Assembly: GCA_903871905.1 (NCBI GenBank)
Contig: CAIQIV010000683.1
Span: 1-41,927, forward strand
Direction of reading: 5' to 3'
DNA from: an uncultured Chloroflexota bacterium
GTDB taxonomy: Bacteria > Chloroflexota > Anaerolineae > Anaerolineales > UBA4823
DNA: 41,927 bases
Within the stretch, counting starts at the first letter, position 1, and every line of letters begins with the position of its first letter. This document shows positions 6,369-23,918 of the stretch, one piece after another. The notes beneath the pieces were generated by a model. That model was given only the letters and a program-made list of their open reading frames with translations, did no database searches and was not told the DNA's origin. Position numbers and translations under genes: made by a program.

Positions 6369-7682
6369 CTAAACCAGCATTCGCAGCGGCTGCTCCAGGT
6401 ACTGTGCCAGAGTTTGCAGATACTGGGCAGCTTCAGCGCCATCGCTGACACGATGGTCAACAGAAATGGTAACCTTCATGCGCCAGCCGGGGCGAATTTC
6501 GCCGTCCTGAACTACGGGGACCTGGCGCGCCGAGCCCACTGCCAGGATCGCTGCTTCAGGTGGGTTGATGATTGCAATGAAGTGCTCTACATCGAACATC
6601 CCCAGGTTGCTGATCGAAAATGTAGACCCTTCAATATCCTCAGGGCGAACTTTGCCAAGCCGCGCCCGTTCTGCCATTCCGCGCACCTCCTGGGCGATCT
6701 GGCGCACAGACTTGAGATCTGCGTCCCGGCATACTACAGTGAGCAGGCCGCCTTGCACGGCTACTGCCACGCCAATGTTTACCTGCCCGTGGCGCCGGAT
6801 TGTATCGCCTTCCAGAGAGGCGTTGAGGTTAGGGAACTGGCGCAGGGAAAGGGCAACCGCCCGGATGATGAAATCATTGACAGACAGCTTCTCGCTCTCT
6901 TCCAGCAGGTTGTTGGCCTGTTTGCGCAGGGACATGAGAGGCGCCATATCCACTTCATGCGTAACGTAAAAGTGCGGAACCTGCTGCTTGGCTTCGGTCA
7001 TGCGGCGGCCGATGGCGGCGCGCAGGCGGTTCATGGGGATAGATTCGCCGGCTGCCGCGACAGCCTGGGCTGACTGGATGGGGGCTGGCGCGGGTGATGC
7101 CGGCTTTTGCCCTGGTGCCGGCGCAGGGGTGGCAGCAATCGGAGCAGATGTCTCAGCAGGCGGCTGGCGATAGCTTTCAATATCCTGGGCCATCAGATCC
7201 GCTTTCACAATGCGTCCATGGGGGCCGCTGCCGCGAACTCTGCGCAGGTCAATCCCACGCTCCTGGGCGACGCGGCGCGCCACCGGCGAGGCGCGTACGC
7301 CGCCAGGCAGCTGTCCGCTCTCATCTGCGGCGGAGGCCGAAGGAGCCGCAGCAGAGGCAGCCCGGGTTTTTTCTTCTGCAAGGGCCACGGCTGCTGCAGG
7401 TGCAGCGCCGGTAAGGCCTAACGCCTGGTAATCGACCTGTTCTCCGGGAGAGGCAACCACCGCGATGGGAGTGTTGACCGGCACCACCTCACCTTGTGGT
7501 ACCAGGTGGCGGGTGACCACACCCTCATAGGCAGATTCCACCTCCACAGTAGCCTTGTCTGTTTCAATCTCCGCCAGGACGGATCCTTTGTAGACTGCAT
7601 CGCCTTCAGCCAGCACCCAGCGTACCAGGGTGCCTTCAGCCATGTCAAAACCCAGCTTGGGCATGGTGACGATTTCAGCCAT
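6369..7682 (-). CDS. dihydrolipoamide acetyltransferase (E2) of 2-oxoacid/pyruvate dehydrogenase complex
   Basis: Lipoyl domain (EIETDKATVEVES), peripheral subunit-binding domain (ASPVARRVAQERGIDLRRVRGSGPHGRIVKADL), catalytic domain with DHRVSDGA. Confidence 0.95.
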   Translation of the reverse strand: MAEIVTMPKLGFDMAEGTLVRWVLAEGDAVYKGSVLAEIETDKATVEVESAYEGVVTRHLVPQGEVVPVNTPIAVVASPGEQVDYQALGLTGAAPAAAVALAEEKTRAASAAAPSASAADESGQLPGGVRASPVARRVAQERGIDLRRVRGSGPHGRIVKADLMAQDIESYRQPPAETSAPIAATPAPAPGQKPASPAPAPIQSAQAVAAAGESIPMNRLRAAIGRRMTEAKQQVPHFYVTHEVDMAPLMSLRKQANNLLEESEKLSVNDFIIRAVALSLRQFPNLNASLEGDTIRRHGQVNIGVAVAVQGGLLTVVCRDADLKSVRQIAQEVRGMAERARLGKVRPEDIEGSTFSISNLGMFDVEHFIAIINPPEAAILAVGSARQVPVVQDGEIRPGWRMKVTISVDHRVSDGAEAAQYLQTLAQYLEQPLRMLV

Positions 7683-8653
7683 CAGATCACCTCCTTGACG
7701 GCTTTTACCACATCCTCTACCTGAGGCAGCGCCAGCTGTTCCAGGTTGCGGTTGTAAGGCAGGGGGACTTCTTTTTGAGCCACGCGGCGCACGGGTGTAT
7801 CCACATAGTCAAAGGCCTCTTCGTAAATGCGTGCCGCAATTTCCGATCCGACACCGTACGAGAGCCAGCCTTCTTCGACAATCACAGCCCGGTTGGTTTT
7901 CTTGAATGACTCGATCACCGGGCCCATATCCAGCGGGCGCAGGCTGCGTAGATCGACGATCTCTACCTCGATCCCATCCTTTGCCAGTAAATCTGCTGCC
8001 TTGGTGGATACCTCCAGCATCTTGGAGTAGGTGACCAGGGTGACGTCCCGCCCTGGACGCTGAACCTGCGATTTGCCGATGGGGATGGTGTATTCTCCCT
8101 CGGGGACCTCCCCGCGCACCTGGTACAGGGTGGCGTGTTCAATGAATAACACCGGATCGTTGGAGCGAATGGCAGCTTTGAGCAGCCCCTTGGCATCTGC
8201 AGGGGTGCCTGGGGCAACCACCTTCAGCCCAGGGAAGTGAGCAAAGATGGCGTCCGGGGTCTGCGAGTGTGTGGCGCCAAGCTGTCGGCCTCCGCCGCCC
8301 ACGGCCCGGATCACCAGGGGCAATACCATCTGGCCGCCGAACATATAATGCAGCTTGGCCGCCTCGTTCACAATATGATCCATGGCAGAAAAGGCAAAAT
8401 TGATGGTCATTAATTCCGCCACCGGTCGCAGGCCGGTCAAGGCTGCACCGATAGCGCCTCCGACGATTGCCGATTCAGCAATGGGGGTGTCCTTCACCCG
8501 CTGGGGGCCAAAGTGATCGTAGAAGCCTTTGGTTACTGCATAGGTTCCACCCCATACACCGACCTCTTCTCCCAAGATAAAGACCCCAGGATCCCGTTCC
8601 ATTTCCTCCCACAAGGCCTGGGAGATAGCTTCACGCATGGTTATTCGAGCCAT
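7682..8653 (-). CDS. pdhB: pyruvate dehydrogenase E1 beta subunit
   Basis: MARITMREAISQALWEEMERDPGVFILGEEVGVWGGTYAVTKGF and VEEGWLSYGVGSEIAARI; overlaps E2 start. Confidence 0.95.
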   Translation of the reverse strand: MARITMREAISQALWEEMERDPGVFILGEEVGVWGGTYAVTKGFYDHFGPQRVKDTPIAESAIVGGAIGAALTGLRPVAELMTINFAFSAMDHIVNEAAKLHYMFGGQMVLPLVIRAVGGGGRQLGATHSQTPDAIFAHFPGLKVVAPGTPADAKGLLKAAIRSNDPVLFIEHATLYQVRGEVPEGEYTIPIGKSQVQRPGRDVTLVTYSKMLEVSTKAADLLAKDGIEVEIVDLRSLRPLDMGPVIESFKKTNRAVIVEEGWLSYGVGSEIAARIYEEAFDYVDTPVRRVAQKEVPLPYNRNLEQLALPQVEDVVKAVKEVI

Positions 8654-8681
8654 GATTACCTCAAAGAATCATTATCAAAGA

Positions 8682-9644
8682 TTATGGTTCTACATAAATG
8701 TTTTCAAACAATGCCTCAGGAGCCGGTTCTGGGCTGGTTTCTGCAAACAGCACAGCCTGGCGCACTTCGGCGGCTACCTTCTCGTCCAGCTCATCCAACT
8801 CAGCCTCGCTGGCGATACCCAGCGTTTCGACCAGCTGCTTGCGGTAGATGCCAATCGGGTCATTTTCCTGCCATTTCTTGACTTCGTCAGCCTGGCGGTA
8901 GCGCTCGGGATCGCCCATGGAGTGCCCGCGATAGCGGTAAGTCATAATCTCCAGGAAGTAAGGGCCTTGACCGCTGCGAATATATGCCATGGCCTCGGCG
9001 GCGGCCTGGATTACATCTAATAAATTCATGCCATCGACACGGCTGTTGGGGATAGCATATCCCTCTGCCTTCTGTCGGATCTGTGAAACGGCGGATGCGC
9101 GCTCAACAGCGGTTCCCATGCCATACTGGTTATTCTCACACACCCACAGCACAGGCAGGTTCCATACCTTTGACAGGTTGACCGCCTCATGGAAGAAGCC
9201 GATGTTGGTAGCGCCATCGCCAAACATGCAGATAGTGACCGCCTTATTGCCCTGGTACTGGTCACCCATGGCAAGGCCGGAGGCGAGAGGCAGGTGCGCA
9301 CCGACAATGGCGTGGCCACCCCAGAAGTTGCGCGTCACATCAGCCATATGCATTGATCCCCCCTTGCCCTTGGAGCAGCCGGTAGCTTTGCCCAGCAGCT
9401 CTGCCAGGACCTGGGTGGCAGGGATACCGCAGTTAATGGCCACGCCATGGTCGCGATAAGCGGTAATTACCCGGTCCTCGGGCCGGCGCGCTGCCACCAG
9501 GCCAGTGCTCACGGCTTCCTGCCCGATATAAAGGTGTAAGAATCCGCCGATCTTTCCCTGTTGGTAGAGCTGCGCCGCCTCTTCTTCCACGCGGCGGATC
9601 AGCACCATTTGATAGTATAGTTCGAGGTATTCCTTTTTCTCCAT
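8682..9644 (-). CDS. pdhA: pyruvate dehydrogenase E1 alpha subunit
   Basis: TPP motif GDGATNIGFFHEAVNLSKVWNLPVLWVCENN; TYRYRGHSMGDPERYR. Confidence 0.95.
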   Translation of the reverse strand: MEKKEYLELYYQMVLIRRVEEEAAQLYQQGKIGGFLHLYIGQEAVSTGLVAARRPEDRVITAYRDHGVAINCGIPATQVLAELLGKATGCSKGKGGSMHMADVTRNFWGGHAIVGAHLPLASGLAMGDQYQGNKAVTICMFGDGATNIGFFHEAVNLSKVWNLPVLWVCENNQYGMGTAVERASAVSQIRQKAEGYAIPNSRVDGMNLLDVIQAAAEAMAYIRSGQGPYFLEIMTYRYRGHSMGDPERYRQADEVKKWQENDPIGIYRKQLVETLGIASEAELDELDEKVAAEVRQAVLFAETSPEPAPEALFENIYVEP

Positions 9645-9670
9645 TAATGTTCCTTTATCATTCCGGTCGC

Positions 9671-10078
9671 TTATACGCTGTGACCCCAGCCGATTTCTTC
9701 TGCTGCGGTGAAAATATCGGTGACCGATATCAGCCCAATTAACTCCCCCTCAGGTCCGGCAACAGGCATGTGGTGGACTTTTAGCTGCTGCATCCTGGCA
9801 GAGCATTCTTGAAGAGTCCATTCTGGATCGGCAGTGATAATCGGAGCAGTCATGATCTCGCTCACGCGGGTTTCAGCAGGATTGCGATCCCCTGCAATGA
9901 TCTTGTCGCGGATATCGGTTGTTGTGACGATCCCGTAAGAAGGATTGTCATCAGCGGTGGCAACAACCAGGCTGTGGATGTTGCGCCGCCGCATTAATGT
10001 TAATGCATAAGAAACTGAGCTGTCCGGATCGACCACAATAACCGGTTTGCTCATCCAGTCGCGCACCTTGGTGGGCAT
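9671..10078 (-). CDS. CBS-domain pair protein
   Basis: Two CBS repeats (MPTKVRDWMSKPVIVVDPDSSVSYAL... VSEIMTAPIITADPEWTLQEC...). Start placed at 10078, behind ggaggttcac, not at the track start 10177. Confidence 0.85.
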   Translation of the reverse strand: MPTKVRDWMSKPVIVVDPDSSVSYALTLMRRRNIHSLVVATADDNPSYGIVTTTDIRDKIIAGDRNPAETRVSEIMTAPIITADPEWTLQECSARMQQLKVHHMPVAGPEGELIGLISVTDIFTAAEEIGWGHSV

Positions 10079-10133
10079 GTGAACCTCCAGAGCGTTTGTT
10101 ATTTGGAATAATACCGTTGATCCCCGATTGGGG

Positions 10134-10142
10134 ATTATATCA
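10134..10142 (-). promoter_or_regulatory. extended -10 promoter (TGATATAAT) for the CBS-PDH operon
   Basis: Minus-strand TGA-TATAAT about 55 nt upstream of the CBS gene ATG. Confidence 0.5.
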
Positions 10143-10192
10143 CTTCCCTTGACCCGAGAAGGATAGAATTGAGTCAATTCAGGTAAAGAATC

Positions 10193-12610
10193 CTATTTAT
10201 TTTGCGCAGGTGGGGTGGCGCAGGTCTCCATGCCCTTTGTTTCCGGAGGCGGAAATGGAATGCCCCAGGAGTTGACCGGGGCGTCGGCAGGTATCCCAGG
10301 ATTATCTGGAGTTAACGACTGGCGGTATACCACCTGGCGGCTGGCAGCATGGAACACAATGAGCTCGGCAGTATTTGTTGGGGGTGCCATCCCGATCAAC
10401 GCCAGGTAAATCCCATCTGGGCTCCAGGTCAGGCTGTGAGCATAGGTTAAATCCATCAGAGGCAGGTATTCGCCAGTAAACAGATCAAGCAGGTAAGCCC
10501 CATCCTGTTGTTCCGGGTGACCATACCCAAAGACAGCCAGGGTGCGGTTATTGGGGGCGAGGGAAAAGTCAGCCGCCTGGAAACCGTTCATGGGTTGGTA
10601 GATGGTACCCGGGTCACGCAAGTTGAACCAGCGCAAGCCGCCGTCCAATCCCTGATCACCAGCGGACCAGGGGGTAAAGACCAGCAGGCTTCCATCCTGA
10701 GAGCGCTGGCAGGTCACGGTCCAGGGGAGGCCCATTTCAATTTGTCCCAGGAAAAAACCATCCGCAAACAGCTGGGCGCTGCCGGGCGCAGGCTCCCTGG
10801 CAAGGTTGACATCCGGGATCATGGGCTGGGAGCGCAGCTGGTCGAATTGAAAGACCAGCGGGCCCTGGGAAGGATTGAAACCGGGATCCGCAGGGGTAAG
10901 CGGCAGGAGCCCTCTCCCGGCGTCCCCCGGGCTGGCAACCTGGCGCGGCTGCTCGGTTCCTGGGCCGGCGATCTGGCCCTGGGCATCCAGGGTGTAAGCT
11001 CGCTGCCAGGGATACTGCTCGTTGAGCAGCTCGGGAGGAATTTCTGGGTCAAATTGGACCTGTGAAACGATAAAATCAGAGAGGATCACCTGCCCATCCG
11101 GGCCGCCGTACCATCTTTCTCGTAAGACCAGGCCTGTGCTCGCATCAACGGTCAGGCGAGCCTGTCGTTTTCCATCAGGGTTGTACCAATCAACCTCAAC
11201 CGACTGCCGCCCCACTGATTGCGATGTGTCTACCACCTGGAAGCCCCCACCGCGCTCGGTCCACTGCTTGCCAAGCGCAAACACCGGTCCCTGCACCTGG
11301 GGGCTGCGCAGGAACTGCGCCACGCCGGCGATCCAGGCAGGGTCCTGGGATGGGTCCTGGTCGACTGGGTGCAGCAGATCGACCTTTTCAGCTGTCTGGC
11401 GAAGCAAGGCCAGCGGGGCCCTGTCTGCCGGACCAAAGAGCAGGATCCGTGCTGCAGGCTGCGCCACCCACGCCTGCAAACGGGTTTTGACCGGCGGACC
11501 AATATAACTTGGGGGGCCGTAATAGATAACCTGGGCATCCAGCCAAAGATTGTTCCAAAATTGAGCGCTGGAGGCCAGGCGCTGCAGGATTTGGTCGGAT
11601 GTCGAGTCAAAAGTCAGGGAATCCGAGGTTTTTGCCAGGGAACCTGTGCCGCTCCATTGCAGCGCACCGGGCACGAAGCTGGGGTTGGATAACAGGCGGG
11701 TGTTCCACAGCCAGGCGGTTTGCGCGGCAACTGAGGTGGAATATGCCTCGCTGCCAGGTAGCGGCGGTGTGTAAACCTGGAATTGGGGCGGCAATGATGG
11801 CAGGGTGAGGGGTTCTGGAGTGGCATCGGTTGTGGGATCGGGAATCATGCGGCTGACCACCCAGATCAAGCCAACCACGATAGCCAGTCCGATGACGGTG
11901 AGCAGGACTTCTGCCAGCGGCGTCAGGCGCCCCCTGCGGGCTTTGCGGCGTGTCAGGTTGGCCTGGATCCAGTTGATCACCGCCTGCTGGTCGTACTGGG
12001 TCAGGTCAGCTTCGGGCCAGCGCTGCCGCAAAGCCTGCCTGGGTTGGTCCTCAATATCCTTGAACCTGTATCCCGCGCTGTGCATCAGATCAAGCAACTC
12101 GTTGGTGATCGCATCCACCTGGGAGTTCAGGGCTTTTTCCTTGACCCGCAGGATGGCGGCAGACTCTGACAGCGGCCAATCCAGCACCTCGGAAAAGATC
12201 AGCGCAAGGCGAGCTTTCTCGTCCTGCATGTCAAAAATGCGCCAGACGAACTCGTAAGCGGGGATTTCTGGGTCTTCGCTTTCTTGATCAGATTGGGCAG
12301 GTGAGTAAGTCGGTTTTGGCGGATTTCGCTGCCGGCGCATCTTCTGGCAGGTTTGCAGCGCCTGTCCCCCCAGCCAGGTGCGGATTCCGCTGGCATGACG
12401 AAAGCGGTGAACATTCATGGCTGCGGCGATGAATGTTTCCAGGGCTGCAACCTGGGCATCCCCTGGATTATCCAACAGACACAGGCACAGGCGGAAGACC
12501 TCGGAATAATGCTCGCGCACCAGGACCTCAGCCAGCATGGATGGACTGGCCTGCCCACTCTGCAGCATCCATTCCAGGTCAGACGATAACTGCGGCTCAG
12601 GTTCAAACAT
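10193..12610 (-). CDS. sigma-70/ECF-like region 2 and 4 domains fused through one TM helix to a C-terminal extracytoplasmic, propeller-like domain (~805 aa)
   Basis: Region-2-like DAQVAALETFIAAAMNVHRFRHASGIRTWLGGQALQTCQKMRRQ; region-4-like ARLALIFSEVLDWPLSESAAILRVKEKALNSQVDAITNELLDLM; TM LTPLAEVLLTVIGLAIVVGLIWVVSRM preceded by RRKARRGR; C-terminal segment with repeated FSLAPNNRTLAVF / LTWSPDGIYLALI blades. Start set at 12610; the track ORF start (13051) is antisense to the next gene. Confidence 0.75.
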   Translation of the reverse strand: MFEPEPQLSSDLEWMLQSGQASPSMLAEVLVREHYSEVFRLCLCLLDNPGDAQVAALETFIAAAMNVHRFRHASGIRTWLGGQALQTCQKMRRQRNPPKPTYSPAQSDQESEDPEIPAYEFVWRIFDMQDEKARLALIFSEVLDWPLSESAAILRVKEKALNSQVDAITNELLDLMHSAGYRFKDIEDQPRQALRQRWPEADLTQYDQQAVINWIQANLTRRKARRGRLTPLAEVLLTVIGLAIVVGLIWVVSRMIPDPTTDATPEPLTLPSLPPQFQVYTPPLPGSEAYSTSVAAQTAWLWNTRLLSNPSFVPGALQWSGTGSLAKTSDSLTFDSTSDQILQRLASSAQFWNNLWLDAQVIYYGPPSYIGPPVKTRLQAWVAQPAARILLFGPADRAPLALLRQTAEKVDLLHPVDQDPSQDPAWIAGVAQFLRSPQVQGPVFALGKQWTERGGGFQVVDTSQSVGRQSVEVDWYNPDGKRQARLTVDASTGLVLRERWYGGPDGQVILSDFIVSQVQFDPEIPPELLNEQYPWQRAYTLDAQGQIAGPGTEQPRQVASPGDAGRGLLPLTPADPGFNPSQGPLVFQFDQLRSQPMIPDVNLAREPAPGSAQLFADGFFLGQIEMGLPWTVTCQRSQDGSLLVFTPWSAGDQGLDGGLRWFNLRDPGTIYQPMNGFQAADFSLAPNNRTLAVFGYGHPEQQDGAYLLDLFTGEYLPLMDLTYAHSLTWSPDGIYLALIGMAPPTNTAELIVFHAASRQVVYRQSLTPDNPGIPADAPVNSWGIPFPPPETKGMETCATPPAQNK

Positions 12611-12697: not shown

Positions 12698-13567
12698 CTG
12701 AACATTCTGTATGTAACCTATCCTCTCAATGCCCTGCTGATGGTCAGCCTCCCCCTGATCCTGGCATTCTACCTGATGCACCATTTCAAATTGGGATGGC
12801 GCCTGTGGTGGATTGGCGCGGCCACTTTCGTGCTGTCTCAGGCTGGTCATATCCCCTTCAACATAGGGGTGGGATACCTGCTGAGAAACTTGATGGTTGG
12901 CTTGACCCAGCCCTGGACGCTGATCATTCAGGCTGTGTTCCTGGGGTTGAGCGCCGGGTTGTGGGAGGAAATGGCGCGTTATGCAGCTTACCGCTGGTGG
13001 GCCAGGGAGGCGCGTTCCTGGCCGAAGGGTGTGCTGATGGGCGCCGGGCACGGTGGGATTGAATCCATGCTGTTAGGCCTGCTGGTATTGATTACCTTCT
13101 TTCAAATGTTTGCCATGCAGGGGCTGGATCCATTGGCCCTGCCAGTTGAACAGCGCCAGTTGGTTCAGCAGCAGATGGCTGCCTACTGGTCTGCTCCCTG
13201 GTATGCCACCCTACTGGGCGCGGTGGAGCGAGTTTTTGCCATGGCGCACCAGATCCTGTTTTCCGTGCTGGTACTCCAGGTTTTTGTGCGCCGCCAGAAC
13301 CGCTGGTTGTGGCTGGCTGTAGCCTGGCATGCCCTGATTGATGCAGTGGCTGTGTACAGCGTGGCGACCTGGGGTCCATACCTGACCGAAGCGCTCCTGG
13401 CAGTAGAGACTGTTTTTGCAGTGCTGGTGATCTTTGCTTTACGCCAACCTGAAACGCCGCAGCCAGAGGCGCCGGCGCCTTCTCCCTCCACCCACCCTCT
13501 GAACGGGAACTCCTTGCCCGTAATAGAAGAGACGTTGGAGAATATTGAGGGAACCCGGTTCGATTAG
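12698..13567 (+). CDS. YhfC family (CPBP/PrsW superfamily) glutamic-type intramembrane protease
   Basis: Motifs EEMAR, GAGHGGIES and HALID in membrane helices. Homologous-looking N-terminus NILYVTYPLNALLMVSLPL extends upstream of the track ATG (12740) to a CTG at 12698 placed 6 nt behind GGAGG. Confidence 0.8.
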   Translation: MNILYVTYPLNALLMVSLPLILAFYLMHHFKLGWRLWWIGAATFVLSQAGHIPFNIGVGYLLRNLMVGLTQPWTLIIQAVFLGLSAGLWEEMARYAAYRWWAREARSWPKGVLMGAGHGGIESMLLGLLVLITFFQMFAMQGLDPLALPVEQRQLVQQQMAAYWSAPWYATLLGAVERVFAMAHQILFSVLVLQVFVRRQNRWLWLAVAWHALIDAVAVYSVATWGPYLTEALLAVETVFAVLVIFALRQPETPQPEAPAPSPSTHPLNGNSLPVIEETLENIEGTRFD

Positions 13568-13569
13568 AG

Positions 13570-14481
13570 ATGATCCAGGCGCACGAACTGACTAAGGAAT
13601 TTGACGGCACCCTGGCGGTCGACCGACTGACCCTGGATGTGCAGGCGGGTGAGGTTTTTGGCTTCCTGGGGCCTAACGGTGCAGGTAAAACCACAACGGT
13701 TCGCCTGTTATCCAGCCTGATTGCTCCCACTCGAGGCAGCGCCCGGGTCAATGGGTATACCCTGGGAAAAGACGACACCCATATCCGCCGCACGGTGGGG
13801 GTTCTGACCGAATCTCCAGGCCTGTATGACAATTTGACGGCTGAATACAATCTGTTGATCTTTGCAAAATTGTACGAGGTCAAGGATCCCAAGTACCAGG
13901 TGGAAAAATACCTGCGCATGCTGGGTTTGTGGGAGAGACGCTTTGAAAGCGTGGGTGTATTTTCCAAGGGGATGCGCCAGAAGCTGGCCATAGCCCGCGC
14001 ACTGCTGCATGAGCCGCCGCTGCTATTCCTGGATGAGCCAACAGCAGCACTGGATCCCGAGTCTGCTCATCTTGTGCGAGATTTTATTGCCGATCTGCGC
14101 AGCCAGGGACGCACCATTTTCCTGTGTACGCACAACCTGGACGAAGCGGACCGCCTGTGTGACCGGATTGCGGTGTTCAAGAAACGCCTGCTGGTGGTGG
14201 ATACACCAGCACGCCTGCGCTCTCAAGTTTTTGGCCGGCGGGTGGTATTCCATCTGGAGAATGCAACAGAGCATCTGGCTGGTGTGGTGGCGGTTTTCCC
14301 ATTTGTCACAGAGACGAAAATCCTGGACAATAAGCTGGTGGTGATGCTGGACGATCCGGAAGTCCGCAATCCGGAACTGGTGTGCGCCCTGGTGGAAGCG
14401 GGGGCGCGTATCCGCTTCGTGGGAGAACTGCGCCATTCACTGGAAGATGTGTACCTGCAGTTGGTAAAGAACCATGAATAA
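13570..14481 (+). CDS. ABC transporter ATP-binding protein
   Basis: Walker A GPNGAGKTT, signature FSKGMRQKLAIARAL, Walker B LLFLDEPTAALD. Confidence 0.95.
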   Translation: MIQAHELTKEFDGTLAVDRLTLDVQAGEVFGFLGPNGAGKTTTVRLLSSLIAPTRGSARVNGYTLGKDDTHIRRTVGVLTESPGLYDNLTAEYNLLIFAKLYEVKDPKYQVEKYLRMLGLWERRFESVGVFSKGMRQKLAIARALLHEPPLLFLDEPTAALDPESAHLVRDFIADLRSQGRTIFLCTHNLDEADRLCDRIAVFKKRLLVVDTPARLRSQVFGRRVVFHLENATEHLAGVVAVFPFVTETKILDNKLVVMLDDPEVRNPELVCALVEAGARIRFVGELRHSLEDVYLQLVKNHE

Positions 14482-15265
14482 GATCCTCACCGTATTGAAA
14501 AAAGAATGGGCGGAGCTCTTCAAAAACCGCATGGTGTTGTTTACCGTGGCTTTCTTACCATTAATCCTGACCGCCATCCCCCTGGTAATCCTGTTTACCA
14601 TGGGCCGCAGCGCTGATTTGCAGGGGATGAGCACGGATTTGCCGAAGCAGTTCAATGCCTTCTGCCCGGAAGGTCTGTCCGGCGGGGATTGTTTCCAGGT
14701 GTACCTGGTTAGCCAGTTCATGATCATGTTCATGATCCTGCCTCTTGCAATCCCGGCGACTATTGCCTCTTACTCGATCGTGGGTGAGAAAACCAACCGC
14801 AGCCTGGAACCGCTGTTGGCGACGCCGATCACCACGACCGAGCTGCTGGTCGCCAAGAGCCTGGCAGCAGTGGTGCCTGGGGTGCTGGCGACTTATGTCG
14901 CATTCGCGGTCTTTGCACTGGGGGCATGGATCCTGGTGCCCAGCAGAGTCCTGTTCCAGGCACTGCTGGATGTACGCTGGCTGCTGGCGGTCATGATAGT
15001 CGGTCCCTTAATGGCCTTGATGGCGGTCAACACCAGCATCATGGTTTCGTCGCGGGTGAACGATCCCCGCGTTGCAGAACAGCTTTCTATGGTGGTGATC
15101 CTGCCGGTGCTGGCGTTTTTCTTTGCCCAGCTTGCCGGTTTGTTTATCATCAACCGCCAGGTGATCCTGCTGGCCTGTCTGGTGTTGTTGGTGGTGGATG
15201 CCGGGATGGTGTACCTGGCAGTGCGCTTGTTTCAACGGGAGACAATCCTGACCCGATGGAAATAA
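14474..15265 (+). CDS. ABC-2 type transporter permease
   Basis: LKKEWAELFKNRMVLFTV N-terminus, IVGEKTNRSLEPLLATPITTTELLVAKSL, multiple TM segments; overlaps ATPase gene. Confidence 0.9.
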   Translation: MNKILTVLKKEWAELFKNRMVLFTVAFLPLILTAIPLVILFTMGRSADLQGMSTDLPKQFNAFCPEGLSGGDCFQVYLVSQFMIMFMILPLAIPATIASYSIVGEKTNRSLEPLLATPITTTELLVAKSLAAVVPGVLATYVAFAVFALGAWILVPSRVLFQALLDVRWLLAVMIVGPLMALMAVNTSIMVSSRVNDPRVAEQLSMVVILPVLAFFFAQLAGLFIINRQVILLACLVLLVVDAGMVYLAVRLFQRETILTRWK

Positions 15266-16056
15266 GACTGCTTTTCCGCTGTGCAGTCCGTGTATGCCGG
15301 GAAAAGACCTGGCTGTGGTTGATGTTCCTGCTTGCCTGCCTGCTGGCCTGGGTTAGACCGGTATTGGCTCAGGATGAGGCGGATCTTGAACTGCGAATCT
15401 CGCGCACCATGGGCTATTCTTCTGGCTCAGGCAGGATCCAGGGTTTGTTTAAGCTGAAAGCTGCTGGTCCGGCAGACCTGGCGCGGGTCGCTTTTTTCGT
15501 CGATGATCAACAGATCGGCACAGATGAAGCTGCCCCGTTTGAACAGGGGTTCAGTACCGACAATTATGGACTGGGGATGCATACCTTATATGCTGTGGGG
15601 GTGACCAGCGGGGGCAGGCAGCTGCGCTCAAATGAGGTCCGGGTGGAGTTTGTCTCTGCCCAGGAAGGCTGGCAGGCTGCCCTGCGGATAATGGTGCCTA
15701 TCCTGGCTTTGACCTTTGGGATCATGGTTATCTCTTACATCTTTGTTTTCCTTGCAGGGAAAAAAGAAAGCCAGGTTGCCCTGGGAGCGCCGCGGCACTA
15801 TGGGATCGCTGGGGGAGCAATCTGCCCTCGCTGCAAAAGGCCTTTCTCTATGCACCTGCTGGCCCCTAACATGGCTTTGAAAAAGTACGATCGCTGCCCA
15901 TTCTGTGGCAAATGGAGCCTGGTGCGCCCGGAGACCAGGCTTAAGCTGCAGGAGGCAGAAGCTGCGGAGCTGCAACTGCCAGCGCTGCCGGTTGAAGAAA
16001 GCGATGGCGATCGGTTAAAAAAAGACCTGGAAAATTCCAGGTATACGGATCTTTAA
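15256..16056 (+). CDS. signal peptide / Ig-like domain / TM / zinc-ribbon protein
   Basis: MEIRLLF start overlaps permease stop. Signal peptide ending VLAQ, Ig-like segment (ADLARVAFFVDDQQIGTDEAAPFEQGFSTDNYGLGMHTLYAVGVTSGG), TM (IMVPILALTFGIMVISYIFVFLAG), then CPRC...CPFC. The track ORF start at 14926 lies inside the permease gene. Confidence 0.8.
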   Translation: MEIRLLFRCAVRVCREKTWLWLMFLLACLLAWVRPVLAQDEADLELRISRTMGYSSGSGRIQGLFKLKAAGPADLARVAFFVDDQQIGTDEAAPFEQGFSTDNYGLGMHTLYAVGVTSGGRQLRSNEVRVEFVSAQEGWQAALRIMVPILALTFGIMVISYIFVFLAGKKESQVALGAPRHYGIAGGAICPRCKRPFSMHLLAPNMALKKYDRCPFCGKWSLVRPETRLKLQEAEAAELQLPALPVEESDGDRLKKDLENSRYTDL

Positions 16057-17495
16057 TGCGGTCCCATTTTTTTTACTGGCTGCTTCTGTTGAGCCTGGCA
16101 TGGGGGTGCAGCCTGCGTCTGGCTCCTCAGATGGTTACCCCATCCCCGCTCCCGGTGCAGGGTACATTGATGATTTTATCCAGCCCTGTGGTTCAGGAAG
16201 AAACACCCGGCACCCAGGTCCCGTCTCAAGTTCCTGCGGCGACGTCTCCTTCACCGCTTGTGCTTCCCCCAACGGAAGTTCCAACCATCATTCCGCAGCC
16301 GACTCAGGCTCTGCCTCCGCCGGACCTGGGGGTGGTTTACATCAAGGACGACAATGTCTTTGTGTGGCGCCCGGGCAGTGGGCCGCTGCAGCTGACCGTC
16401 TTTGGGGGCGTCAAAGCGGTATATCCGTCTCCTAACGGGACAGAGGTGGCTGTCCTACGGCAGGCGGGTGAGTTTCAAAATGAACTGTGGGTAGTGCACA
16501 TGGATGGGAGCGGCGGGCGCCGCCTGGTGTCTCGGGCTGACCTGGATGCCCTGGAACCGGAAACACGCCGCCCGGAAACAGTTGCCATCAATCCCTACCA
16601 GGCTGCCTGGGCTCCAGGAAGTTCACTGTTGGCTTTCAATACCGTCCAGGTAATGGAAGGCCCTGGCGGCGCCAGCCCTAAGGACCTGCGGCTGGTCGAT
16701 ACCAGTGCGGTCAGCCCAACCATAACAACCGTGCTGCCGAATGGGCAGGGTGGGATGTTTTACTACTCGCCGGATGGGACCCAGGTCGCGGTCGTCACTC
16801 CCCAATCCATCAGCCTGGTGAATGCAGATGGCAGCCGCCTGCGCAGCCCGGTATTTCTGTTTGACCAGGTTAACACCTACAGCGAATACTCCTATCACCC
16901 TGAACCGGTCTGGTCAGCCGATTCGAGCGAATTGTGGGTGGTTGTGCCGCCGGTGGACGCATTTTCTGAGCCGCGGCTGCCGACTGAAATCTGGAAGATC
17001 AGTGCTGGCGAGAAACCTGAGATTGCCCTGGTGTCTAAAGTCCAGGCTGCGCCATTCTTCGGCAGCCCGGTTGCGCTTGCCCCAGGCCTCTCCCGCCTGG
17101 CGTATCTAACAGAGACTGGCACGCCCCTGGAAAACCGCAGTGAGCTGCACCTGGCAAACCTGGATGGCAGCCAGGATACCCTGTATCACACGGCCGCGCT
17201 GCTGCAGTTTGACAGCTGGGCGCCAGGTGATGGGCATTTTGTCTTTCGCTTTGACGAGGATCAAAAACCGTATCTGGGCCAAGTGGGGGGGGAGTTCTTG
17301 CCGCTGCCAGGCATAAACGGAAGCGCGGCGGACGGCGTTTCCGGCGTGCAGTGGGTGAACTCGGATTTTTACCTGTTTACCCTGACCGATTCACTTTCAG
17401 CGCAGTGGGAGCTGCGCCTGGGATCGCTGGATGGAACCAGCCAGGTAATTGATCACGGAAGCGGTCAGGTCCCGGCATATGAGGCTGTCTGGTAA
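16056..17495 (+). CDS. secreted lipoprotein with TolB/WD40-like beta-propeller repeats
   Basis: Lipobox-like LSLAWGC, Pro/Ser/Thr linker, repeated SPNGTEVAVL, SPDGTQVAVV, SADSSELWVV blades; TAATG coupling to upstream gene. Confidence 0.8.
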   Translation: MRSHFFYWLLLLSLAWGCSLRLAPQMVTPSPLPVQGTLMILSSPVVQEETPGTQVPSQVPAATSPSPLVLPPTEVPTIIPQPTQALPPPDLGVVYIKDDNVFVWRPGSGPLQLTVFGGVKAVYPSPNGTEVAVLRQAGEFQNELWVVHMDGSGGRRLVSRADLDALEPETRRPETVAINPYQAAWAPGSSLLAFNTVQVMEGPGGASPKDLRLVDTSAVSPTITTVLPNGQGGMFYYSPDGTQVAVVTPQSISLVNADGSRLRSPVFLFDQVNTYSEYSYHPEPVWSADSSELWVVVPPVDAFSEPRLPTEIWKISAGEKPEIALVSKVQAAPFFGSPVALAPGLSRLAYLTETGTPLENRSELHLANLDGSQDTLYHTAALLQFDSWAPGDGHFVFRFDEDQKPYLGQVGGEFLPLPGINGSAADGVSGVQWVNSDFYLFTLTDSLSAQWELRLGSLDGTSQVIDHGSGQVPAYEAVW

Positions 17496-22658: not shown

Positions 22659-23918
22659 ATGGATATGCCCAACCCACCCTCTGGCGACCGTCTGGCGCTG
22701 CTTTACCAGCTTGCCCGTAATTTCAATTCGTCTTTGGACATGGACGAAGTATTGAACCTGGTTATTGACGAAGTGCTGGTTGCCACCCGTGGTGAGCGGG
22801 GCTTTGTGATGCTTTTCGCACAGGAAGGGGTTTTGGAATTTCGGGTGGCGCGGGGAATCGAACAGCAAATCATTGATCACCCGGAATTTGAGGTCTCCCG
22901 CAGCATTATTGAGCGCGTGGCTGAATCGGGACAACCCATTCTTACCAATGATGCCCAAACCGATTTACGGTTTAAGGCGCGCAACAGTGTGCTGTTGTTA
23001 GGCTTACGCTCGATTTTGTGCGTGCCTCTCCGCCAGCGAGACCATATACTGGGGGTGATTTATGTGGATAATCGTCTGCAATCCGGGATTTTTACCCTCT
23101 CAGATCTGGAACTGCTCAATGCGATTGCCTCGAATGCGGCGATTGCGATTGAGAATGCACGTTTATACCAGGTGGCGGTTGAAAAGGGTCGACTGGAAAA
23201 AGAACTGCAGCTGGCGCTCCAGGTTCAGGTTTCGATGTTACCGCAAAACCTGCCTGCAGTTCCTGGCTGGGAGTTCATTGCTCATTGGTTACCGGCGAGG
23301 ACGGTTGCTGGCGATTATTACGATGTCTTTCCATTGGATGCAAACCGGTATGGGTTGGTGATAGCAGATGTGACCGATAAGGGCATGCCGGCAGCCCTAT
23401 TCATGGCACAGACCCGCAGCACCCTGCGCGCGAGTGTGAATGGCATCCAGCCACCTGCTGAGCAGATTGCCCGCATCAATCGCTTGATCTGCTCTGATAC
23501 TGCCAATGGGATGTTCGTTACACTTTTTTTTGCCATGCTGGATATTACCTCCGGTGAGATGGTGTATGTAAATGCAGGGCACAACCCTCCTTTCTTCTAC
23601 ACCAGTCGAGAAGACAGGTTTTACAAGCTGGTGCGAACGGGTATGTTGATGGGGGTAGATGAATCCGCCACATACGAACAATATGGAATAATGCTCAACC
23701 CTGGTGATTTCCTGTTGTTGTATACCGATGGGATCACGGAAGCAACTGATCTCCAGACGCGTGAGTTTGGCGTTGAGCGATTGATGCAGGCCTTGAACCA
23801 GAACCGGCGGATGCCCCTGGCTGAAATTGTCAAAGAGCTGCTCAATTCACTGCAGCGTTTTACCGGAACTGCTCCGTTGCTGGACGATGTAACGGTCCTG
23901 GGGGTGCGCCGGTCATGA
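22659..23918 (+). CDS. GAF domain - SpoIIE/RsbU-type PP2C serine phosphatase
   Basis: GAF domain followed by ARTVAGDYYDVFPLDANRYGLVIADVTDKGMPAALFMA, NAGHNPPFF, LLLYTDGITEATD, DDVTVL. Confidence 0.93.
   Translation: MDMPNPPSGDRLALLYQLARNFNSSLDMDEVLNLVIDEVLVATRGERGFVMLFAQEGVLEFRVARGIEQQIIDHPEFEVSRSIIERVAESGQPILTNDAQTDLRFKARNSVLLLGLRSILCVPLRQRDHILGVIYVDNRLQSGIFTLSDLELLNAIASNAAIAIENARLYQVAVEKGRLEKELQLALQVQVSMLPQNLPAVPGWEFIAHWLPARTVAGDYYDVFPLDANRYGLVIADVTDKGMPAALFMAQTRSTLRASVNGIQPPAEQIARINRLICSDTANGMFVTLFFAMLDITSGEMVYVNAGHNPPFFYTSREDRFYKLVRTGMLMGVDESATYEQYGIMLNPGDFLLLYTDGITEATDLQTREFGVERLMQALNQNRRMPLAEIVKELLNSLQRFTGTAPLLDDVTVLGVRRS

Follow-up and report, generated by a model that had tools for sequence, protein, structure and literature searches.

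An ECF-sigma-derived domain joined to a transmembrane helix and an RseB-like/propeller ectodomain in Anaerolineae: a possible membrane-bound sigma mimic

Several ECF sigma factors are known to share one chain with membrane-associated regulatory parts, as a first-pass annotation of the locus studied here had noted. In Pseudomonas putida, IutY (ECF243) carries the sigma factor and a C-terminal membrane-bound anti-sigma part on a single polypeptide, is activated by regulated intramembrane proteolysis (RIP), and serves as the active sigma of an iron-siderophore cell-surface system (PMC8999054). The actinobacterial groups ECF52 (SCO4117), ECF48 and ECF53 combine a sigma factor with a zinc-finger/anti-sigma region, a transmembrane (TM) segment and an extracytoplasmic binding domain (PMC5826349, PMC8999054). 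Release by intramembrane proteolysis has been shown for IutY and proposed for SCO4117 (PMC8999054, PMC5826349). ECF57 of Planctomycetes bears WD40-like repeats in the C-terminal extension of its sigma; no RseB-like domain is described for it, and regulation through protein interaction has been proposed (PMC8999054). A different logic is found in the alphaproteobacterial PhyR, a soluble protein switched by a receiver domain, whose degenerate ECF fold titrates an anti-sigma factor (PMC8103513).

The locus described here lies in a window of 41,927 nucleotides (the whole stretch of DNA that was analysed) from an uncultured Chloroflexota bacterium. It encodes a protein, P0001, that is ECF-sigma-derived; its membrane-fused layout is already known, while its ectodomain and its altered sigma surfaces differ from those of described systems. 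P0001 resembles IutY in its one-chain arrangement but has a LolA/RseB-propeller ectodomain and altered core- and DNA-contacting surfaces, and proteolytic release is only hypothetical for it. The family of fused proteins to which it belongs likewise shares the order of sigma, TM and ectodomain seen in ECF52, ECF48 and ECF53, but comes from another phylum, has another ectodomain, bears the zinc motif in only three relatives, and has degraded sigma surfaces. By its description, ECF57 shares WD40-like C-terminal repeats with P0001 and differs from it in the RseB-like domain. With PhyR the family shares an ECF fold whose RNAP and promoter surfaces are degraded; a few relatives give weak Pfam PhyR matches, and PhyR entries are also among the structural matches of the N-terminal model of P0001. 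In P0001, unlike in PhyR, a TM segment and an ectodomain follow the sigma-like part. Pfam found no receiver domain in P0001, nor is another known mimic switch present, and for want of a receiver domain we did not class the protein as a PhyR. We did not class it as a functional ECF sigma either, because the core-contact residues of its region 2.2 are altered and its -35 helix is not basic. Compared with RseA/RseB-sigmaE and MucA/MucB-AlgU, in which RseB and MucB are known regulators of sigmaE and AlgU, the proximal ectodomain is nearest to MucB/RseB by predicted fold, but there is no separate periplasmic RseB: P0001 shows only a region like the RseB N-domain (LolA-like), and a propeller replaces the RseB C-domain. 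Nothing relevant on the fused architecture in Chloroflexota was found in open-licence papers.

The reading frame of P0001 is uninterrupted over its whole length (Table 1). Many homologues start with MF(D/E)..., which agrees with its ATG at 12610; the frame stays open upstream as far as 13051. From the N-terminus on, a sigma2-sigma4 fold of ECF-sigma type is followed by a single TM helix, then by a degenerate LysM and a domain resembling LolA and RseB(MucB), and the chain closes with a short propeller of PD40/WD40 type. The open reading frame, profiles, TM prediction and models all bear out the earlier claim that the sigma-like, membrane and sensory parts reside on one polypeptide.

Table 1. 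Positions in the window of the fused gene, its parts and its conserved neighbours.
Feature	Position	Strand	Evidence
Pyruvate dehydrogenase E1alpha, E1beta, E2, conserved downstream neighbours	6369..9644	-	NCBIfam, synteny
CBS-domain protein, 15 bp downstream of fused gene	9671..10177	-	Pfam CBS 1.2e-28
Fused sigma-like/TM/LolA(RseB)-like/propeller protein (P0001), 805 aa	10193..12610	-	ORF, start, homologues
Short PD40/WD40 propeller (res 577-798)	10217..10882	-	PD40 in relatives, TolB matches, AF2 strands
LolA/RseB(MucB)-like domain (res 331-532)	11015..11620	-	Foldseek MucB/RseB top matches; common to split lipoproteins
Linker (res 256-328) containing a degenerate LysM-like stretch	11627..11845	-	Alignment to paralogue LysM
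Single transmembrane helix (res 234-255)	11846..11911	-	Hydropathy 2.76, AF2 helix 205-255
Juxtamembrane RWP...helix...RR segment (res 189-230)	11921..12046	-	Alignment
Sigma4-like region (res 118-178); basic residues absent from recognition helix	12077..12259	-	Profile, alignment
Sigma2-like region (res 23-95) with changed acidic/core-binding residues in region 2.2	12326..12544	-	Profiles, AF2 helices
N-terminal motif DLEWMLQSGQ (res 11-20), conserved	12551..12580	-	Fused relatives having the domain
YhfC-family intramembrane metalloprotease, divergent neighbour	12740..13567	+	Pfam PF10086 4.7e-31
ABC-2 transporter ATPase + permease, conserved neighbours	13570..15265	+	Pfam, synteny

A single TM helix had been proposed, and one is predicted, with a positive cytoplasmic flank (+5 vs -2); the positive-inside rule is satisfied in 22 of 27 homologues. 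The extracytoplasmic part had been described as some 500 residues with propeller-like repeats. A propeller is indeed present, but it takes up only about 220 residues at the C-terminal end; some 200 residues before it are LolA/RseB-like, and these are preceded by the LysM-like stretch, which lies in a linker of low pLDDT. Searched with Foldseek, an AF2 model of full P0001 (built from 27 homologues, pLDDT 79.7) matched MucB/RseB on top among PDB entries, followed by TolB and other propellers. Pfam domains among 27 relatives (E<=0.1) included PD40 in 16, LysM in 11 and, weakly, MucB_RseB in six; Sigma70_r2 and Sigma70_r4_2 were found in 13 and 12. We infer that this LysM/LolA-RseB-like/propeller ectodomain senses the envelope.

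Similarity of the N-terminal part to sigma2 and sigma4, which the first-pass annotation had proposed, was found by profile searches, and P0001 contains the domains of ECF group IV both by profile and by fold. Pfam Sigma70_r2 matched residues 30-95 at 21 bits in hmmscan, under the cut-off of 24 bits; the genome search, at 26.2 bits, put the match above it. Several NCBIfam ECF models also match (best 7e-10), and a profile made of 40 canonical ECF sequences from the class scored 81 bits over residues 9-169, covering sigma2 and sigma4. In turn, the profile of the fused family matched solved ECF sigmas at 6e-25. TAL effectors, which appeared among the PDB matches of the N-terminal profile, were dismissed as repeat artefacts. 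Among solved structures, the N-terminal AF2 model (pLDDT 88.9, pTM 0.81) most resembles SigW and CnrH in their anti-sigma-bound forms (TM-score by target 0.76, vs about 0.3-0.45 for RNAP-bound ECFs). It takes the closed, anti-sigma-bound arrangement, a form that AF2 may prefer merely because many ECF structures in its training are anti-sigma complexes. The juxtamembrane segment sits where an anti-sigma would have its C-terminal helix.

The surfaces through which a sigma factor works are another matter. In a sigma factor the RNAP clamp helices are the binding target of region 2.1/2.2 (PMC7406223), and region 2.2 serves to bind those of beta-prime (PMC7406223, PMC4598750). One of 26 fused proteins retains the Asp of region 2.2, against all ten sigmas encoded apart from their membrane partner (uncorrected Fisher 4e-8, which ignores relatedness). 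The Gln is kept in 7/26 and is also absent from five of the ten split sigmas, so that Gln and Glu tell less than Asp. P0001 itself has Val for Asp and Leu for Gln, and retains the Glu. Region 2.2 is gapped in five fused proteins of the first alignment, which gives a denominator of 22, and in four of the second, which gives 26. Mean net charge of the region is -0.2 in fused proteins vs -3.6 in canonical ECFs, and mean charge of the recognition helix is +0.3 in fused, +3.2 in split and +3.8 in canonical proteins, relatedness being ignored in both comparisons. The -35 recognition helix of P0001 has a net charge of -1 vs a canonical mean of +3.75, in keeping with the earlier remark that region 4 looks divergent. 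Taken at the level of residues, these comparisons show a sigma fold that appears to have lost its core-RNAP and promoter-contact chemistry in the fused proteins, although lost conserved residues are not proof of lost function. P0001 may still have weak or altered sigma activity, because it is among the better-preserved members, with sigma4 present and the profile score given above. The annotation had offered lost promoter binding or an unusual promoter. Besides the recognition helix, which is no longer basic, the core-RNAP-binding region 2.2 is altered family-wide, which makes a non-initiating domain likelier than a sigma with an unusual promoter.

The architecture recurs in Chloroflexota, where it was searched for: 33 related ORFs were counted over 20 Anaerolineae genomes, a count that takes in partial ORFs, L121 with a different ectodomain, and L116:1570-2484, which stops after the TM. 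The TM and ectodomain were found as a consistent fusion in homologues. Within P0001's own GTDB family, fused ORFs occur in 18 of 38 sampled genomes, often in tandem, and the genome of P0001 itself has a full-length paralogue (L039/L077, 28% identical) whose LysM aligns to the linker of P0001. Anaerolineae bacterium UTCFX2 (MWTA01000027.1) is among the carriers, and a search of 400 genomes of the order added G1091 and G792 from other families. P0001 alone as a query against genome contigs gave no match; a seven-row alignment gave eight loci, mostly on contigs already known. Run across the phylum, the whole profile returned mostly ordinary ECF sigmas, with only two candidates scored per genome. 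Absence of the fused form outside the order is weakly suggested.

In other genomes of the order (G192, G148, G780, G781, G938, G1035, G1027, G933, G398), the same parts occur as two adjoining genes, an ECF sigma beside a TM/LolA-like/propeller protein (L044, L065, L150, L151, L153, L154, L155, L157, L158). The partner is a TM protein or lipoprotein with a LolA-like domain, a propeller or both, and several of the gene pairs overlap by a few bases. At L115, two fused genes come after a gene for an ECF sigma and one for a zf-HC2 anti-sigma/TM/propeller protein. L077, L098 and L148 have the zinc anti-sigma signature HxxxCxxC in the stretch from sigma to TM, and P0001 does not; in the first 27 relatives it was observed twice vs 0.007 expected. 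A tree of the 12 better-aligned fused and 40 canonical sigma domains placed the fused ones in one clade with long branches (UFBoot 97). Because the order carries the parts as two genes, the fused form looks like a joined pair of sigma and membrane anti-sigma. The protein probably descends from such a two-gene system, and one single join is the simplest reading.

The genomic site is conserved across many genera as [YhfC-]ABC ATPase-permease / fused gene / [CBS-]PDH E1alpha-E1beta-E2. Downstream gaps are often short, at 15-45 bp both in the window and at L100, L103 and L109, and reach about 170 bp elsewhere; the CBS gene is probably co-transcribed with the fused gene, as this arrangement suggests. 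The pairing of a sigma-like sensor gene with CBS and pyruvate dehydrogenase E1/E2 genes immediately downstream (6369-10177) is conserved. As the first-pass annotation had noted, no separate anti-sigma lies nearby, and the window proteins scanned include no sigma or anti-sigma gene. Elsewhere in the genome zf-HC2 gave three matches, at L165-L167, and each of them has an ECF sigma match near it on its contig. Upstream of fused genes at L100, L105, L107, L110, L117 and others, the extended -10-like TGGTAGAAT/TGGTAAAAT recurs; the recurring TGGTAGAAT is consistent with transcription by the housekeeping sigma.

Other genes in and beyond the window deserve mention. A secreted-looking protein of 479 aa without a Pfam match (16056-17495) has counterparts beside the ABC genes in L100, L103, L107 and L110. 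About 10 kb from the fused gene, 22659-23918 encodes a GAF + SpoIIE-type phosphatase protein; proteins of this kind take part in sigma partner-switching in other systems. Two genomes of one genus encode a LuxR-type HTH, a TM and a LolA-like domain in one ORF (L074:5729-6823, minus strand; L075:5422-6576, plus strand), and at L073 and L076 a TM-LolA-like gene has a receiver/LuxR-type regulator gene immediately upstream.

What might such a protein do? The reading we favor, with even confidence, is that of a transmembrane sigma mimic whose logic would resemble that of PhyR and which most likely starts no transcription. It rests on the altered core and promoter surfaces of a domain that nonetheless stays under purifying selection, on the split relatives and on the closed N-terminal model, with PhyR as the precedent. 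The single TM helix would keep the ECF-sigma fold on the membrane's inner face, and a ligand or stress at the ectodomain would change the exposure of the closed sigma2/sigma4 unit. That unit would then bind or free a predicted protein partner, for example an anti-sigma that serves one of the cell's canonical ECFs, and the regulon of that ECF would be changed indirectly through this partner.

We ranked a straightforward functional ECF below the sigma mimic. By this less likely alternative, the main rival, P0001 would be a working, divergent ECF sigma that is kept inactive at the membrane and freed by regulated intramembrane proteolysis after its ectodomain has detected envelope stress. The analogy is with IutY and SCO4117, whose part order is the same (PMC8999054, PMC5826349); it draws further support from the detectability of both sigma2 and sigma4 in P0001 and from selection. 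The sigma-like domain evolves under purifying selection (dN/dS of 0.12, 0.11, 0.24 and 0.22 in four pairs, rough values, since a fifth pair was saturated and dS exceeded 1 in most). A YhfC gene divergent to the fused gene, found here and at the same position at four other loci (L099, L115, L117, L121), makes YhfC a candidate processing protease. Against this reading, the gene is not at the same locus in L100, L103, L107 and L110, no shared ECF-type promoter was seen upstream of the 19 genes inspected, and the family-wide loss extends beyond core- and -35-binding residues: L118 and L120 lack sigma4 altogether, with about 150 residues ahead of the TM.

The sigma-like part varies widely and is partly lost in several paralogues, and one might suppose that it is a vestigial cytoplasmic plug, the protein being a sensor or scaffold at the envelope surface whose N-terminus serves only folding or anchoring. 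We consider this improbable given the low dN/dS and the strong conservation of the N-terminal motif (D11 15/17, L12 16/17, W14 17/17, L16 17/17 and S18 16/17 among the 17 fused relatives having the domain) and of the juxtamembrane Trp/Glu. At the syntenic site, moreover, L121 (2931-4772, minus strand) keeps the sigma-like N-terminus and TM while a Peptidase_C39_2/TPR region replaces the ectodomain. Together these features suggest that the cytoplasmic part is a retained output module. A chance similarity, or a fusion created by assembly or gene-calling error, was ruled out as contradicted by the data: the hmmscan Pfam score is under the curated cut-off and the assemblies are draft MAGs, but the similar ORFs come from independently assembled genomes with conserved synteny, uninterrupted frames and confident structure models.

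Returning to the sigma mimic, we tentatively propose that the fused proteins may be one-component switches, in which an extracellular RseB/propeller sensor sits on a tethered pseudo-sigma that would titrate anti-sigmas or another partner, and which would have arisen by fusion of an ECF sigma with its membrane anti-sigma followed by loss of sigma activity. Sigma factor, membrane tether and RseB-like sensor are three proteins elsewhere and one chain here, and among related genomes the fused versions coexist with split versions that look ancestral. An inactive sigma domain would give sigma mimicry a second route next to that of PhyR, this one bound to the membrane; an active one would be a sigma factor with unusual core and promoter contacts.
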